From the NCBI RefSeq assembly GCF_003325955.1, contig NZ_CP030929.1:124001-188000 (forward strand): a stretch of 64,000 nt of DNA, in the 5' to 3' direction. Within the stretch, counting starts at the first letter, position 1; the number at the start of each line of letters is the position of its first letter. Below the pieces are notes generated by a model, which worked only from the letters and a program-made list of their open reading frames with translations, searched no databases and was not told the DNA's origin. Positions 13,119-21,305 of this stretch are shown in pieces. The position numbers were made by a program, and so were the translations under genes. Origin of the DNA: Aurantimicrobium sp. MWH-Uga1 (lineage in GTDB: Bacteria > Actinomycetota > Actinomycetes > Actinomycetales > Microbacteriaceae).

Positions 13119-14309
13119 TTACTTCGAGATTTTCTTTTTTCGAAGGACGAGCACAGATCCTGCTAGTAGCAGTCCCGCAGCGAAATAGAGTGCAACAGGC
13201 ACAGCTCCGGAATTAGTTTGACCTGTTGCAGGAAGTGAAGACGGGGTTGGACTTGCAGTTGGACATGGCAAGTTTCCTGCGTCAGTAACACTGAGGCTAA
13301 TGACATCGGAGGCGCTTTGAGCCCCAGCAGTTGCAGTAATTGTGTAGTTCGCTTGGCTTGATGCCGCGCTGGCCGTACCTGAAATTGAACCGGTGGCAGT
13401 GTTGAGGGACAATCCTGCCGGTAGCACTGGTGAAATTGCGTACGACGGGCTTGAAGCAAAGTTAGAAGCTGTCCAAGCGAAGTTGCTGGTGAAGGCAGTG
13501 CACGTATCTGCTACTTGACTAGGGTTACCAGCATTGAGCTCTGCAGGGAAACTAATTAATGAAGTGGCAGGAGTGTTGACATTTCGGGCGATAGCCATGT
13601 TGTCGAATTCAAAGCCACCTGAGGAACCCTGAGAGAAGACAAGTGTGTCAAAAGTTAACCCGTTAGCACCAATGAGGTGCACATATGCGAATGGTTCAGT
13701 GTTGGTGAGGTTTCCACATCGAGAGGTTGTGAGTACTGGGTTTCCAAAGTATTCACAAGATTGGTAGGACGTATTGTCAATTGCCGTAATTGAGCCCACG
13801 CCGTTATTGAGCAATGAAACAAGGGATGCAGTTGTGAAAGTTCCGACAAGGGTGCCAGAAGTTCCACCTGAGTAAAGCTTCACGGTGTTGTTAGCGTCAC
13901 CTGCTGACCACCAGAAACCTAGGTAGCTTTCTGGTTGGTCGAGTGTAAGTGTCACAGTCTTGTTGCTGGGGACGCTCGCATAGTTGGTCCCGTTGCCCGA
14001 GGGCCGGCTCAATGCAGCACCTCCTGCTCCAGTGGTAGCGCCACCGTATTGGTTAGGACCAGAGATGCTGCAGCCGGTGGTGGTGATAGTTCCGATTGAT
14101 GTTGAGGTGTCAGATGTCCATGCTGTAGGGCATGCACCTGTTGTGTAGCTGTTGAAGGTGGCGATTTCTGCACCAGCAACATAGGTGTTCTGAACCGTAG
14201 GGGGTGAAATGTAAAAGTTAAGCGTTGGATTTGATGCACTAGCGGAAACTGGTGAAAGCACCAGAGCGCAGAGTGCAGCGGTGAGAGATAGTCCAAGAAG
14301 CTTTTTCAT
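13119..14309 (-). CDS. Secreted surface protein with putative Ig-like domain and LPATG signal
   Basis: The protein has 396 residues, with a signal peptide (about 1-26, ending SASA). The first 240 residues look like a jelly-roll domain with conserved GFEFDNMAIAR near the end. At about 265-345 is a putative immunoglobulin-like repeat of the He_PIG kind, recognised by LPAGLSLNTATGSISGT and YTITAT. A short Pro/Ser linker leads to LPATG at 359-363, a hydrophobic helix and RKKKISK. The layout is that of a sortase substrate. The start ATG has AGG 6 nt upstream. It is convergent with the LPRTG gene and shares its terminator. Function beyond envelope display is unknown. Confidence 0.78.
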   Translation of the reverse strand: MKKLLGLSLTAALCALVLSPVSASASNPTLNFYISPPTVQNTYVAGAEIATFNSYTTGACPTAWTSDTSTSIGTITTTGCSISGPNQYGGATTGAGGAALSRPSGNGTNYASVPSNKTVTLTLDQPESYLGFWWSAGDANNTVKLYSGGTSGTLVGTFTTASLVSLLNNGVGSITAIDNTSYQSCEYFGNPVLTTSRCGNLTNTEPFAYVHLIGANGLTFDTLVFSQGSSGGFEFDNMAIARNVNTPATSLISFPAELNAGNPSQVADTCTAFTSNFAWTASNFASSPSYAISPVLPAGLSLNTATGSISGTASAASSQANYTITATAGAQSASDVISLSVTDAGNLPCPTASPTPSSLPATGQTNSGAVPVALYFAAGLLLAGSVLVLRKKKISK

Positions 14310-15443: not shown

Positions 15444-15776
15444 ATGCATAAGAAGCTGTTCTGGGTTTATTTCATGCTCTCCATTGTGGGACTGATCACT
15501 GCCTGGATTTTCAACGGCATTGCAGTGATGAATCAGGAGGACTACCTGGGTGCCTGGTTTGGTTCTGCAGTTGATTGGGTGCTCTCGGCCGATCTCACTA
15601 TCGTCGCCATCGCTGTAGTGGTGTTCATGATTACCGAATCTCGACGTATTGGAATGAAGCGTGTGTGGTTATACATCCTGCTTTCTGGTGTGACCGCGAT
15701 GGCCTTCACCTTCCCACTGTTTATGGCCATGCGGGAGCGTCAGCTAGTCAAGAAAAGTTTGTTGGAAAACAAATAA
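15444..15776 (+). CDS. DUF2834 family membrane protein
   Basis: The protein has 110 residues with three hydrophobic segments (about 5-25, 45-62 and 75-95). The sequence pattern, with a first helix, a short acidic loop (NQEDYLGAWFGSAVDWVL), a central helix ending in ESRRIGMKRVW and a last helix ending in MRERQL, fits DUF2834, a family of small membrane proteins of unknown function. The ATG is preceded by AAGGGGTAACACATC. No partner can be assigned from the neighbours. Confidence 0.7.
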   Translation: MHKKLFWVYFMLSIVGLITAWIFNGIAVMNQEDYLGAWFGSAVDWVLSADLTIVAIAVVVFMITESRRIGMKRVWLYILLSGVTAMAFTFPLFMAMRERQLVKKSLLENK

Positions 15777-15811: not shown

Positions 15812-18016
15812 TTACTTGTTTGAAGCGGTGGATCTTCTAAGCAAGAAAAATGTCGCACCTGTTAGGAGAAGTACCGCTCCCATCCAGAGAGAATCAATGT
15901 TTCCTCCTGTTTGAGGGAGAACTGCTGCACTAGATGTCGGTGTCACAGGTCCGATTCCCGAAGTTTGTAGCAGGGTTCCGCTGCTGCTTACTTCGAACCA
16001 GACTGCGTGAGAAATTATTTCACCGTTTGAACCTGTTCCAGTCAGCGTGATGCTGTGCCATCCTTCTGAGAGTCCGGCAGGAATTTGTGCCGAACCGGAA
16101 AGCAAACTGCTGCTAAAGGTTCCCGACGCAATTGTTTGCGGGTTCGAACGAACAATTAGCGTCCACGCAGAGTTACTTTGAAGGCCAGAAGCTGCATAAT
16201 CAACAGTCGAGTTAGCAACATTTGAGCCGGTTGTCATATCTAACGCCAAGGAAACGGTAGGTGTAGATGAAGAGATACTGAAGTCCACATCCTGTGTGTC
16301 AGCGAGATAGTTTGTTGTGGATGCCGCTGTTGCACGAACTGAACAAATCCCAACTCCAGTAAAGCTCACAACGCCAGTTGAACTATCAACAGAGCAGCCG
16401 GTTGTTCGCGCATCAACCACACTGTAAGAGATTTGCCCATCACCGTTTGTCGTAGCAGGGCTTGAAGGAGTAACAGATGACAGATTTCGCAATACAGAAG
16501 TGTTCGTTGGGGCCCAAGTAACTGTTTGGGAGGGCAGAGGAGTCCACTGAGCGTGTAATGTCACGTTTGATGTGCCTGCCGAAACTGCTGAGGCGGTGAG
16601 GGCAGTGCCACCCGTGGCTGCTGCGAACCAGCCCGCGAAGGTATATCCAGAACGTGTTGGTGCGGTGGGAAATACCAAGGTGTTTCCGTATACGTAGCTT
16701 CCGTCATTGACTGCACTTCCACCGTGCTCGTCGTATGTGACGTTATAGGTATTGGCGCTCCACTGAGCGTAAAGTGTGACGCTTGCGTTGCCTGCTGAAA
16801 CATCACTGGCACTTCGAGCTGTGCCCCCAGAGGATGCGGCAAACCAACCTAAGAATGAATGCCCGGTCTTAGTGGGGTTCGTGGGGTAAGTAAGGGAGCC
16901 ACCGTGAGTAAATGTTCCATCATTGACAGCACTTCCCCCCTGTTCAATGTATGTGACGTTGTAAGTGTTTACCGCAAAAGCGGGATACAGGGTCGTGTTA
17001 GCGATGAGGTTATAAGAGCCCGTGGTTCCATTTGTTTGATTGGCGCTGTCAGCCCAGCCAGTGAATGTATAGCCAGGCTTTGCTAACGAACCGCTGTTCC
17101 CGTCGAGAGTTATGAGACCGTTTCCTGTCCTAGAAGCGGGTGCAGAGCCACTCGTTGAACCGGTTGCAGAGTAGGTCAGAGTATATGAAGCTGCATTGCT
17201 TGCAGCTTCTGCTGATGTAATTGCTGCAGTGTATATTCGGACGTATTTGATTGCACCGTTGAAGGAAGCATCAGTACCCCAGTTACTTCTGCCAATGTAA
17301 TTGTTGTTTCGAATTACATTGAGCGGCAAAGAAGTATAGGTGCTTCCTAGATCGTTCGAATCGTTGAAGAAACTGACTTGGCCGACAGCCGTATCAATCT
17401 CCGCCCCATTTTTGTACATTCTGCACTTTGAGCCATCGAGAGTAATTACGAATTTGGCGAATACCCCTGCTTGTCCATTGTTTAGAAGTGCTTGATTCGT
17501 ACTGATGCAGCGGGATTTACCATTTGCGCCATGAAAGATTTCTATGGCAAGTTCGTTGGGATTGCTTGACTCACCTAGCACCCCAACCCAAATGTTGTCT
17601 GCTGCTGGACCGTTGCCAAAATCAAAAATTCTTTCCCAGGCCTGGTTAGTGGCACCAAAATGACCTTCGAATTCGATAGTGATTCCACTTCCGAAGTTAT
17701 TGAATCCTGAACCCATGTCAACATAGGAATTGCTTCCGAGATTGCTTGCCCCACTGTTGGGAAATTCCAGAGCACCTGTTGCATTGTTGTAATTGAGAGA
17801 TCCGGTAATTGTTCCATTTCTATTGAATGAAGATAAGTCTCGCCACGTTCCCGGAGTTGATGAGTCATATGAACCAGAATCTGAAGCAACGAGGTTTAGA
17901 AACAAATCCGATGCTGAAACAGCATGAACTGCCGAAGAACCAAGGAGAACGAAAACAGTAGTAAGCGATAAAGCAGTTGTATTGCGCTTGAGCATGCGCT
18001 TAATCCAAGTGAACAA
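15812..18016 (-). CDS. Secreted LamG/InlB-repeat surface protein with LPQTG signal
   Basis: The product has 734 residues. I kept the TTG at 18016 as start because GAGG lies 6 nt upstream; an ATG at 17995 is an alternative. A signal peptide ends near VHAVSA (about 30-35). Residues 38-285 look like a LamG/concanavalin-like lectin fold (NPNELAIEIFHG, GAIKYVRIYTAAITSAEA). Three InlB-type beta-repeats follow at about 285-490, each with a (H)GGS...YPT.P...G..F.GWF pattern. A QTVTWAPTNTS unit (about 497-585) and a 90-residue module are paralogous to the C-terminal part of the LPRTG protein. LPQTG is at 700-704, with a hydrophobic helix and RRSTASNK tail. This suggests a wall-anchored, carbohydrate- or cell-binding protein. 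Confidence 0.82.
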   Translation of the reverse strand: MFTWIKRMLKRNTTALSLTTVFVLLGSSAVHAVSASDLFLNLVASDSGSYDSSTPGTWRDLSSFNRNGTITGSLNYNNATGALEFPNSGASNLGSNSYVDMGSGFNNFGSGITIEFEGHFGATNQAWERIFDFGNGPAADNIWVGVLGESSNPNELAIEIFHGANGKSRCISTNQALLNNGQAGVFAKFVITLDGSKCRMYKNGAEIDTAVGQVSFFNDSNDLGSTYTSLPLNVIRNNNYIGRSNWGTDASFNGAIKYVRIYTAAITSAEAASNAASYTLTYSATGSTSGSAPASRTGNGLITLDGNSGSLAKPGYTFTGWADSANQTNGTTGSYNLIANTTLYPAFAVNTYNVTYIEQGGSAVNDGTFTHGGSLTYPTNPTKTGHSFLGWFAASSGGTARSASDVSAGNASVTLYAQWSANTYNVTYDEHGGSAVNDGSYVYGNTLVFPTAPTRSGYTFAGWFAAATGGTALTASAVSAGTSNVTLHAQWTPLPSQTVTWAPTNTSVLRNLSSVTPSSPATTNGDGQISYSVVDARTTGCSVDSSTGVVSFTGVGICSVRATAASTTNYLADTQDVDFSISSSTPTVSLALDMTTGSNVANSTVDYAASGLQSNSAWTLIVRSNPQTIASGTFSSSLLSGSAQIPAGLSEGWHSITLTGTGSNGEIISHAVWFEVSSSGTLLQTSGIGPVTPTSSAAVLPQTGGNIDSLWMGAVLLLTGATFFLLRRSTASNK

Positions 18017-18071: not shown

Positions 18072-18132
18072 CCAGCTGTCTATTTTGGGTTCATCAGAGC
18101 GATTACTGCTACACATCTGTATCTTTGAACTC

Positions 18133-18372
18133 ATGGACGATCAAAACTCTGTAATGAGTGTGGGCTCGAAGAACTCAGTGTTGAGCTTATGGTCCACGAA
18201 CTCGTTTATGTCCATCGGTTCTCGAGGATCAGCCTTTTCAATCGGATCCATTGGGTCCTTTGGCAGCATTCTTTCTATTGGTTCATTTCTGAGCGTGCTA
18301 AGCATTATGTCGAGCCTCGCATTTCTGGGCCTGATGGCGTCAAAGAAACGTGCCAAGCTTTCACGTCGCTGA
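18133..18372 (+). CDS. Small Ser-x-x repeat protein, unrecognised family
   Basis: The product has 79 residues from the ATG at 18133; an in-frame TTG at 18085 would add 16 residues with no better ribosome site. Serine occupies every third position from residue 6 to residue 60, 19 times without a break. The two positions between are mostly V, I, L, M, F and G, with a few charged residues early (K13, R31). A hydrophobic end (about 46-69) leads to the basic tail SKKRAKLSRR. All six serine codons are used in the array, so the period is kept at the protein level. A three-residue period fits a beta-solenoid or a packed helical membrane peptide. I do not recognise a named family, and function is unknown. 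Confidence 0.65.
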   Translation: MDDQNSVMSVGSKNSVLSLWSTNSFMSIGSRGSAFSIGSIGSFGSILSIGSFLSVLSIMSSLAFLGLMASKKRAKLSRR

Positions 18373-18436: not shown

Positions 18437-18976
18437 ATGAGCGTGCGAACTCCTGATCCCAACGGCGGCTGGCTAAGTGACGACGAGCTCTCCTCGATCC
18501 GCCGCCGGCTTCCCCTTCTCTACGTTGAGGCAGTGCCTGTTCGGGTTGACGGTCTCGGAGTTGTCACAGAGGTTGGATTACTTCTTCGCGCAAATGCAAC
18601 TGGAGAAATGACCCGCACAATCGTCTCTGGCCGTGTGATGTATGGCGAGACTCTTCGCGAAGCGCTGTTTCGCCACCTTGAAAAAGACTTGGGCCCCATG
18701 GCGTTCCCGCTCTTGCCAGCAAACCCCAATCCTTTCCACGTTGCAGAGTATTTCCCGCTTCCGGGCATCTCACAGTTCACCGATGAACGCCAGCACGCAG
18801 TCTCAATGGCATATGTGGTCCCCGTCACAGGCACGTGTGATCCGCGCCAAGACGCTTTGGAAATTACCTGGCTCACACCGCACGAGGCAGCCAGTAATGC
18901 GGTGACCTCTGAGATGGAGGGCGGTCGGGGAGCATTGCTCCGAGCCGCTTTAGCATCCGTTGGTGCACTGAATTAG
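18437..18976 (+). CDS. DUF4916 / Nudix-like protein
   Basis: This 179-residue protein matches the actinobacterial DUF4916 family, which has a Nudix-hydrolase fold. Seen are GGWLSDDELSSIRRRLP at the N-terminus, the strand VGLLLRA, SGRVMYGETLREALFRHLEKDLG (about 68-90) in the place of a Nudix box, and VSMAYVVPVTG. The Nudix box is incomplete: the REUXEE part reads RHLEKDLG, so hydrolase activity is uncertain. The ATG has AGG close upstream. It stands alone between the Ser-repeat gene and the coiled-coil genes. Confidence 0.75.
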   Translation: MSVRTPDPNGGWLSDDELSSIRRRLPLLYVEAVPVRVDGLGVVTEVGLLLRANATGEMTRTIVSGRVMYGETLREALFRHLEKDLGPMAFPLLPANPNPFHVAEYFPLPGISQFTDERQHAVSMAYVVPVTGTCDPRQDALEITWLTPHEAASNAVTSEMEGGRGALLRAALASVGALN

Positions 18977-19097: not shown

Positions 19098-20237
19098 GTG
19101 GATATCGAACTTCCCGTTGTGCCTGACAAAAAGGGACTAGACCCCCAGCAGGTTAACGTTGCTCTCACCGACGTGCAGATTGAGGTCTCACGCCTGGAAT
19201 CTGAGCGTGCAGAAATAGATAAGCGCATTGACACTCTTACCCGTGAGGTCGCAGAAGTGCGCAGTGCTCTCAAACGCGCCAGCGCAAAGCCTTCCTTCTC
19301 TGATCTTGGTGCTGCGTTTGAGCAGACACTGCGAGTTGCTGAGGAACAAGCGGGCAAGCTCATCTCCGATGCACAAGCTACCAGTGCTCTCACTCGTCGA
19401 GCGGCAGAAGAAGAAGCTGCAGCAGTCACCGAAAACGCCAAAAAGCAAGCAGCAAAACTCATTGCAGACACCGAAGCCCGTGTTGAACGTCTGAACAAAG
19501 AATCTGAGAAGAAACTCAGCGATGCTCTCAAGACAGCGAAAGCAACTCTTGCCAATGCAGAAATTCAACACGAAGAAGCAATCAAGATTGCCGAAGCAAT
19601 CACTGTTGGCGGCGCTCAGGTTCGCGAATCACTTGAGACTGAGTTGGCTCAAGAGATTGAACAGTCTCGTATTGAAATCGCAACATTACGCCAAGTACAC
19701 GAACGCGATAAGCGACGGATCGACGAAGAAATCGAGATTCTCCGTGCCAAAGCAGAGCGTGACAACGGTCGCCTCATTGCCGAAAACGAAACGTACATCG
19801 CAAAACTGCTTGAAGAGTCACAAAAGAACCTCGATATCGCCCGGGAACGTGCACGCGAAATTCTGGTCGAGTCTCAAAAGAACTTTGCCATCTCACGCCA
19901 AGAGGGAGTTGCCCTCGTTCGTGAAGCTCGAGAAACCGCAGCAGGAATTATTCGCCGCGCACGTGCTCGTACGAACACTTTGACTGAACGTCTCGAAGAA
20001 CGTTCTGCAATCTTGCTGGAGAATGGCGAGAGCTTGCTTGATGGCATCAACACGGAACGTGAGGCTGTCGAGGCCTTCAATTCTGAGCTGCGCATCATTG
20101 CGTTGTCTGAGCAGAACAAAGATGACGACAACCTGCTGAACTATGTTTCTATCGCAGATGACGAGCTTGCTGAAGAACTCACCGTCGAAGCTTTGGACAT
20201 GAACGATGATTCCCCAACCGATGAGATGAAACGGTAG
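19098..20237 (+). CDS. DivIVA-like coiled-coil protein A
   Basis: I chose the GTG at 19098 because AAAGGA lies just upstream; the TTG at 19077 would add seven residues. The product has 379 residues and is almost wholly predicted coiled coil, rich in Glu, Ala, Arg and Lys. A signature AKPSFSDLGAAFEQTLRVAEE (about 78-98) is shared with the next gene and resembles the conserved segment of actinobacterial cytoskeletal coiled-coil proteins (DivIVA, FilP, Scy). It probably acts at the cell pole, septum or envelope as a scaffold; the acidic C-terminal tail may bind partners. The following paralogue starts 9 bp downstream. Confidence 0.75.
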   Translation: MDIELPVVPDKKGLDPQQVNVALTDVQIEVSRLESERAEIDKRIDTLTREVAEVRSALKRASAKPSFSDLGAAFEQTLRVAEEQAGKLISDAQATSALTRRAAEEEAAAVTENAKKQAAKLIADTEARVERLNKESEKKLSDALKTAKATLANAEIQHEEAIKIAEAITVGGAQVRESLETELAQEIEQSRIEIATLRQVHERDKRRIDEEIEILRAKAERDNGRLIAENETYIAKLLEESQKNLDIARERAREILVESQKNFAISRQEGVALVREARETAAGIIRRARARTNTLTERLEERSAILLENGESLLDGINTEREAVEAFNSELRIIALSEQNKDDDNLLNYVSIADDELAEELTVEALDMNDDSPTDEMKR

Positions 20238-20246
20238 GGGTGAAGT

Positions 20247-21305
20247 ATGGATCTGACTCGCTCTTTTAAAACTGTTCGTCGTAATGGTTATGACCCCAAT
20301 GATGTTAAGCGTGTATTCCGTGATGCTGAAGTGCGCATGGAAGAACTTCGCCAAAGCACACGCTCAGGTATTGCCACCGTTGACAAGCTCGAGCGAGAGC
20401 TTGCTGACTTCCGTGATGCACTGCGCCGCTCGAACGCTAAACCCACGTTTGCTGACTTGGGTTCCGCATTCGAGCAGACCCTCCGTGTTGCTGAAGAGCA
20501 AGCAGACAAGCTGGTTGCCGATGCTGAAGCTGATGCCAAGGTAGTCCGGGAGTCAGCCCGCGCCGAAGCAGAAACCGTCACACGCGCGGCAAAAAACAAG
20601 GCCTCCGCTTTGCTTGTTGAAACCGAAGAAGCTATTGAAGACAAGCGCCTGGAAGTTGAGCGTGAAATAGCTCAGCTGAACATGAAGGCAGAGTCTCTTA
20701 TTCTTCAGGGCAACACCGCTAAGGAAACCGCGCAGCGTCGTGACGCTGCACTGCTTGCCGAAGCTGAGCGCGATGCTGCTGACGTTCGTGCGCGGTTGCA
20801 CCAAGAAATCGAAGACGCCAAGACTGAGCTGGAAACCCTGCGTCAAATTGCTGAGCGTGAACAGCTTCGTATCGAGCGTGAAATCAAGCTTGCTATGGAA
20901 GAGTCCGAACGTGAACGTCTTGCCCGTCACGAACAAGCAGTCGCTCAGGTTGAAGCACAAACTCTCGAAGCGAACGAGCTTCTGCGCGCAGCAGAAGAAG
21001 AAGCTCAGAGCCTCAACCAACAGATGGATGAGTTTGCTGCAACCACTCGCGCAGATGCCGAAGGCCTTCTCAATGCTGCACGCGAGAGTGCAACAAACCT
21101 GATTAGCCGCGCTCGTTCACGTGCTGAAACTCTAGCCATCCTCTTTGATGAGCACGCTCTCGAAATGATGGAGAAGGCAGAGCGTCGTCGAGAAAGTCTC
21201 GAGCGTCAGCGTGAAGCAATGCGCGAATTCTCTCTCGAACTCAAGGCACTGGCTTCGGCAGATGCCATGGTTTCGCTCGACGAATCTGAGTCTCAGCGCG
21301 ACTAG
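20247..21305 (+). CDS. DivIVA-like coiled-coil protein B
   Basis: The protein has 352 residues. The N-terminus SFKTVRRNGYDPNDVKRVFRD resembles the DivIVA N-terminal domain, in which a conserved F..V.R.GYD..EVD turn binds the membrane. The rest is a long coiled coil with the shared signature AKPTFADLGSAFEQTLRVAEE (about 66-86). The start ATG is preceded by GGGGTGAAGT. With its upstream paralogue it likely forms a co-transcribed pair that arose by duplication, in which only this copy keeps the membrane-binding head. Expected role: polar or septal scaffold in growth or chromosome organisation. The exact role cannot be read from the sequence. Confidence 0.78.
   Translation: MDLTRSFKTVRRNGYDPNDVKRVFRDAEVRMEELRQSTRSGIATVDKLERELADFRDALRRSNAKPTFADLGSAFEQTLRVAEEQADKLVADAEADAKVVRESARAEAETVTRAAKNKASALLVETEEAIEDKRLEVEREIAQLNMKAESLILQGNTAKETAQRRDAALLAEAERDAADVRARLHQEIEDAKTELETLRQIAEREQLRIEREIKLAMEESERERLARHEQAVAQVEAQTLEANELLRAAEEEAQSLNQQMDEFAATTRADAEGLLNAARESATNLISRARSRAETLAILFDEHALEMMEKAERRRESLERQREAMREFSLELKALASADAMVSLDESESQRD

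Follow-up and report, generated by a model that had tools for sequence, protein, structure and literature searches.

The window analysed here is a stretch of 64,000 nucleotides from Aurantimicrobium sp. MWH-Uga1, whose genome is a single contig of 1.61 Mb. The gene of interest encodes a protein of 79 residues in which serine recurs at every third position over most of its length. This gene and the features around it are as follows.

15444 to 15776, plus strand: gene for a DUF2834 membrane protein, separated in the window from the array gene by the LPQTG gene.
15812 to 18016, minus strand: gene for an LPQTG surface protein, which adjoins the array gene only in the window's genome and in G001.
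18120 to 18125, plus strand: TATCTT, a hexamer resembling a -10 element and a predicted leaderless promoter, ending 7 nt before the ATG with its first T at -13.
18133 to 18372, plus strand: gene for the SxxS-array protein, 79 codons and a stop, with a conserved frame and a corresponding start in seven Aurantimicrobium genomes.
18148 to 18312, plus strand: the array, residues 6 to 60, from the first to the last in-phase Ser.
18283 to 18339, plus strand: residues 51 to 69, the most hydrophobic 19-residue stretch (on a crude scale), modelled as helix by AlphaFold2.
18343 to 18369, plus strand: the basic tail KKRAKLSRR, residues 71 to 79.
18437 to 18976, plus strand: gene for a DUF4916/NUDIX protein downstream of the array gene, kept in the genus and at loci L012 and L080 and not seen at the other loci compared.

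Translation of the array gene places serine at residues 6, 9 and so on to 60, which is the 19 consecutive every-third serines that a sequence-only reading of this DNA had described. Its statement that all six Ser codons occur in the array was also reproduced, with identical counts (TCT 3, TCC 4, TCA 4, TCG 3, AGC 4, AGT 1). Three further serines (61, 70 and 77) lie out of the array phase, and the protein contains no His, Cys or Pro. When its residues were shuffled 200,000 times, the longest every-third-Ser run was 12, against the 19 observed. No LPxTG motif is present in the 79 residues, and no hydrophobic stretch that might serve as a signal peptide is apparent by eye ahead of the array. Tandem Repeats Finder found no DNA tandem repeat at the gene, so the Ser pattern is not the product of a recent DNA expansion.

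The gene is carried by seven of the eight genomes of the genus, G002 being the one without it. Among the seven carriers, 63 codons compared over 21 pairs gave 616 synonymous and 86 nonsynonymous codon differences, and the variable columns at codon positions 1, 2 and 3 number 14, 4 and 51. Between the window and G001 there are 22 synonymous and 0 nonsynonymous differences in a 57-codon core. Across ten sequences compared, both TCN and AGY codons occur at 5 of 20 Ser columns, so Ser has been kept through changes of codon class. By its substitution pattern, the array gene encodes a protein under strong purifying selection. The earlier claim that the repeat is maintained by selection and not by recent duplication is thus borne out by the synonymous excess, the mixed Ser codon classes and the lack of a DNA tandem repeat.

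Relatives of the protein were sought at several taxonomic depths. A search over one genome per species, which detects close relatives only and has no bearing on distribution outside Actinomycetota, gave eight related loci, including ones from Microbacterium aoyamense, Rhodococcus and Actinoplanes. A nine-row profile matched 39 of 299 genomes of the same taxonomic family and 26 of 396 genomes of the phylum (E<=1e-4). The 39 comprise 22 in which arrays were seen, 9 with GSVGSV runs and 8 that were not inspected; among the 26, locus L070 is a GSVGSV run, and the sequences at L061, L068 and L069 are either short or degenerate. The profile is mimicked by long GSVGSVGSV runs within open frames at L037 to L044 and L070, all from other genomes of the same taxonomic family, and these nine loci were excluded from membership as probably low-complexity DNA.

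A 44-row profile matched 103 of 394 class-level genomes (E<=1e-6; the weak matches, which were not inspected, may be low complexity), and 40 further loci taken from near the top of that list all passed the array test. Applied to 198 genomes drawn from the phylum, a set that partly coincides with the 396, the same profile matched 15. Within one large genus 46 of 150 genomes matched at E<=1e-12, 45 of them with a single match and one with two overlapping pieces. One match per genome is the usual copy number, the exceptions being G674 with three and G861 with two strong matches. In all 82 loci were read, a set from which five near-identical loci of the genus Aurantimicrobium (L008 and L075 to L078) were dropped and which is not a random sample of the family.

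None of the collections searched supplies a name. For the window protein Pfam gave no match at E<=10, and for eight other members none at E<=0.01. NCBIfam gave none above cut-off: the window protein has only a sub-threshold match to HisXaaSer_A4, and the others have a few, far under the cut-off. PADLOC was silent for the four members tested; PHROGs had nothing for the window protein or L096 and only weak matches for L105 (E 0.024) and L113 (best E 1.5e-4); and Rfam had no match at the array gene at gathering scores. This agrees with the earlier remark that no named family has the pattern, and no paper on such a family was found in the open-access literature. The profile search that the sequence-only reading had put forward as its own check recovers homologues across Actinomycetota that keep the triplets. 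The Ser-every-third proteins are an unnamed family of small proteins that retain the pattern and are widespread among Actinomycetota, and this is almost certainly a real protein family.

Mobile elements were also considered. A search of phages and plasmids with the window protein and a search of phages with L105 returned nothing, though the low-complexity filter of BLAST may hide matches in either case. With L105, two Streptomyces plasmid records matched over 77 to 78% of its length and six others over only 28 residues; with L096, one Nocardia farcinica record matched over 31 residues. Searches of viral contigs turned up 53 and 77 candidate stretches, none of them confirmed as a relative. A phage or plasmid origin of the family was rejected on these sparse or absent matches. 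As a separate observation, a PAP2-family phosphatase gene lies within a few kilobases of the array homologue, or was matched, in both Streptomyces plasmid loci (L202 and L205), and L202 also carries a SpoIIE-family phosphatase gene and a LanC-family gene.

The gene very likely starts at the ATG at 18133, because a corresponding ATG is present in six other Aurantimicrobium genomes (one of which has one residue more), because TATCTT lies 7 nt before it, and because the RefSeq start of a Streptomyces plasmid homologue, annotated as 'hypothetical protein', matches it. The hexamer recurs in the family. A [TC]ANNNT hexamer stands 6 or 7 nt before an ATG in 44 of 82 members (33 at spacer 6 and 11 at spacer 7), while other spacers have a mean of 0.6 and a maximum of 3. 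The pattern was seen first as TANNNT and widened post hoc; with TANNNT alone the counts are 13 at spacer 6, 3 at spacer 7 and no more than 2 at any other. Among non-redundant members with a single candidate ATG, 29 of 54 have the hexamer, against a background of 229 of 6145 (3.7%) same-strand ATGs in non-redundant loci. In all seven Aurantimicrobium sequences compared, TANNNT ends 6 or 7 nt before the ATG. Of the 82 members, 34 have no hexamer at spacers 5 to 7 before any ATG or GTG candidate, and 14 have a Shine-Dalgarno-like tetramer ahead of a candidate ATG. The DUF2834 gene of G005 ends in a TAG stop codon that forms the first half of the hexamer, TAGGCT, which is also the hexamer of G003, G006 and G007. 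A scan for two-hexamer sigma-70 promoters found none on the plus strand near 18120, and a scan for promoters of the sigma-B/H type gave matches in five loci.

Excerpts of published work describe leaderless actinobacterial genes with TANNNT about 12 bp upstream of the start codon (PMC3160421) and mycobacterial promoters of the TANNNT type (PMC3898074). Set beside the excerpts on leaderless genes (PMC3160421), the array gene appears to be an ordinary example with no difference. A -10-like element this close to the start codon implies a leaderless mRNA, and it is highly probable from the sequence pattern that the array gene is expressed in this way, with the 5' end of its mRNA at or adjoining the ATG. 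Among the non-redundant members with a spacer-6 hexamer, 24 of 28 have C at -1, and no -35 element is visible.

A 71-codon antisense ORF, an open frame found mechanically, overlaps the array gene at 18141 to 18356 on the minus strand. Together with the fact that some profile matches are artefacts (the GSVGSV runs), it could be taken to mean that the array is not translated and only reflects another frame, an RNA element or drift in low-complexity sequence. We consider this very improbable: the synonymous excess and the third-position variation lie in the plus frame, the start is conserved along with its promoter-like hexamer, and Rfam is empty here. The substitution pattern favours the plus frame over the antisense ORF.

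The neighbours of the array gene vary even within the genus. The sequence-only reading had noted that the array gene lies divergent from the LPQTG surface-protein gene, and the position and strand of that gene are as it described; a link between the two is not supported, as they are neighbours in only 2 of 7 carriers. The DUF2834 gene lies directly upstream of the array gene in G003, G005, G006 and G007 (4 of 7 carriers), and in G004 neither gene adjoins it. G002, which has no array gene, retains the DUF2834 and DUF4916 genes, and in G006 about 8.7 kb separates the array gene from DUF4916. These varying neighbours mark a spot of gene turnover, at which the LPQTG link is incidental. Lying between the array and DUF4916 genes of G006 (L119:5246-13742) are a 1980-residue ORF that reads as surface-protein-like and two ORFs that by reading resemble a response regulator and a sensor protein.

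Outside the genus, the Rhodococcus locus L014 and three other loci have another neighbourhood in common. No recurrent partner was found: among 150 adjacent proteins (the nearest on each side, up to 900 residues, from 304 roughly picked flanking ORFs), no Pfam family occurs in more than 5, as judged from the 25 commonest of 200 families. Synteny was set aside as a guide to function, given that only the neighbourhoods of the genus, L012 and L080 and of the L014 group recur. Nor does the patchy distribution of the gene, or the absence of a partner, point directly to a function.

Arrays in the 82 members run from 14 to 29 triplets with a median of 23, and the proteins are mostly about 75 to 160 residues long, with a median of 108.5 when starts are those chosen in the analysis. 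The three-residue period that had been claimed holds for the exact spacing of Ser, but the repeat goes beyond it: the unit is nine residues, S-[IV]-L-S-[IV]-G-S-x-G. Identical triplets at lag 3 make up 21.8% against 5.4% after shuffling (z 31; 71 arrays, non-redundant at 85%). Position 2 of the triplet is mostly Val, Ile, Ala, Leu or Phe, and position 3 mostly Gly, Leu or Ala.

Two kinds of known repeat invite comparison. RTX beta-rolls are built of nonapeptides with a calcium-binding GGxGxD motif; the array family shares the nine-residue unit but has a Ser phase inside it, and GGxGxD is absent from the 79 residues of the window protein. Snow-flea-type polyproline-II antifreeze bundles and collagen-like repeats have Gly at every third residue. 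Like the array they place a small residue at every third position, but that residue is Gly and not Ser, and the window protein has neither Cys nor Pro.

Ser occupies 1831 of 1880 array Ser sites, the rest being Ala 19, Cys 15, Gly 11 and one each of R, F, P and L. This 97% is partly by construction, since the arrays were selected on Ser phase. Thr is found at none of the 1880 sites, against 68 Thr at position 2, and a Thr inside an array would be penalised no differently from an Ala in the picking of arrays. In phase just outside the arrays, Thr accounts for 43 of 576 residues and Ala for 135. Thr is a one-base change from a TCN serine, as Ala is, yet it is absent, and this pattern points to a size limit at the Ser sites and not only a need for a hydroxyl.

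The ends of the proteins differ from the middle. Mean net charge over the 82 members is +1.1 in the N-terminal flank, +0.9 in the first six triplets, +0.1 in the middle, +1.0 in the last six triplets and +2.7 in the C-terminal tail; the ends of the family are basic and the middle of the array is neutral. Trp is found close to the array start in 57 of 82 members and close to the array end in 42; the middle averages 0.04 Trp per member. A loose start motif (SLWSxDSVLS-like) matches 75 of the 82, and no claim is made for it because the pattern also fits the repeat unit itself.

The avoidance of Thr would also suit a modified peptide. The array could be the core of a RiPP precursor like the His-Xaa-Ser peptides, with its serines modified enzymatically. 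HxsA peptides (HisXaaSer_A4) are likewise small with Ser at every third position, and this model is the best NCBIfam match of the window protein (E 3.9e-4, 21.2 bits); of 8 other members, 7 also match it, with E values no higher than 0.01. One Streptomyces plasmid carries a LanC-family gene two genes away from its array homologue and on the opposite strand. All of these HxsA4 matches score 17 to 29 bits, however, against a cut-off of 55, and the window protein has no His. Of the maturation enzymes searched for in its genome, HxsC, YcaO and LanC are absent, and the four radical-SAM genes found there are MiaB, HemW, LipA and RlmN, which weakens this explanation. No maturase is among the 25 commonest of the 200 families in the 150 adjacent proteins. 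Excerpts of the report on the RiPP precursor TvgA give it TVGG repeats and a five-gene cluster with a radical-SAM enzyme (PMC9062424). By that account the array protein is similar in being small with a short repeat made largely of Val, Gly and small residues, and differs in that no radical-SAM gene lies beside the window's array gene and no partner recurs. We regard a RiPP precursor as improbable.

AlphaFold2 was used to predict the structures of two members. For the window protein, modelled with nine sequences, the mean pLDDT is 51 with helices at residues 16 to 25 and 36 to 78; pLDDT reaches about 66 to 70 only around residues 51 to 70 and is below 50 over residues 1 to 45. L015 is predicted as coil with a C-terminal helix at a mean pLDDT of 45. 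The earlier suggestion of a beta-solenoid or a membrane-packed helix meets helices that are mostly of low confidence in the window protein and coil in L015. Profile matches in the PDB are short stretches, the best of which, with profile A5, are GST-type linkers in kinesin fusions.

The C-terminal helix raises the possibility that the array forms transmembrane helices which bundle via their small residues, perhaps as a pore or a membrane-packing module. In the window protein, residues 51 to 69 just reach the necessary hydrophobicity (0.66 on the crude scale), helix 36 to 78 is modelled across them, and small residues at the Ser sites suit helix packing. A three-residue period, on the other hand, winds round an alpha helix and gives no constant face, only 3 of 82 arrays have any 19-residue window under 1 on the crude scale, and the L015 array is left as coil by AlphaFold2 at low confidence. 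Transmembrane bundling of the array thus seems unlikely. Residues 51 to 69 are a candidate transmembrane or membrane-lying helix, part of which falls within the last triplets of the array. By the crude scale, a clearly hydrophobic window follows the array in only 12 of 82 members, some members (L185, L193 and L197 among them) end soon after it and others, such as L107, have an acidic tail, so a membrane anchor is not family-wide.

The low pLDDT could instead mean that the array is an intrinsically disordered, low-complexity spacer, in which composition matters, no ordered assembly forms and function lies in the basic ends. The values below 50 over residues 1 to 45 of the window protein and most of L015, and the variation of array length between 14 and 29 triplets, are in keeping with this. 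A Ser phase held over 14 to 29 triplets, a superperiod with z 31 and the lack of any Thr in 1880 sites exceed what composition would produce, however, and the array is nearly invariant within the genus while its synonymous sites change. The low AlphaFold2 confidence over the array fits disorder as well as assembly, and we hold a disordered spacer to be somewhat unlikely.

The Ser phase, the nine-residue unit, the absence of Thr, the neutral middle with basic ends and the solitary expression are best explained by a packed, self-associating repeat that is held at the membrane. The protein may thus be a small, self-associating, membrane-associated structural protein in which a tightly packed repeat requires Ser as its small residue, a tentative reading to which we give a probability of about 0.38. 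Close packing of one face against a neighbouring chain would require every third residue to be small and unbranched, and the Ser hydroxyls on that face would make hydrogen bonds. The neutral, hydrophobic array would self-associate into a compact repeat structure or polymer, while basic residues at both ends would hold the protein at the cytoplasmic membrane, helped in the window protein by the hydrophobic C-terminal segment and the KKRAKLSRR tail. This small protein would work by itself in a structural or scaffolding role and not as part of an operon-encoded machine.

A more doubtful, though possible, extension is that the arrays have a repeat architecture not yet described, a polymer or bundle in which Ser forms a ladder, each structural step takes three residues and the unit is nine, and that actinobacteria make wide use of it as a stand-alone, leaderless, membrane-associated scaffold. 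If the array does assemble, it would offer a simple, programmable repeat fold. The original observation was correct and is more general than the sequence alone could show, and the function proposed here for the family is putative. Within the open-access literature searched, what is new is the protein family and the type of repeat, and not an activity. The family has no Pfam or NCBIfam name even though, weak matches included, as many as about a quarter of the class-level genomes sampled are matched by the profile, and it offers a clean experimental entry: a short gene, a defined start, no recurrent partner and a sharp rule at the Ser sites (small, not Thr).

Other genes of the window were read alongside. 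Two encode LPxTG-type surface proteins, at 13119 to 14309 and at 15812 to 18016, the latter (the LPQTG gene) with three Flg_new stretches and a laminin-G-like domain; the genome has one sortase-family match, at G000:C1:13659-14057. Two adjacent coiled-coil genes at 19098 to 20237 and 20247 to 21305 have sub-threshold matches to DivIVA (17.6 and 26.1 against 28 bits). Each of the pair matches the other's counterpart in relatives at about 29 to 40% identity, and the pair is kept in the genus, L012 and L080.
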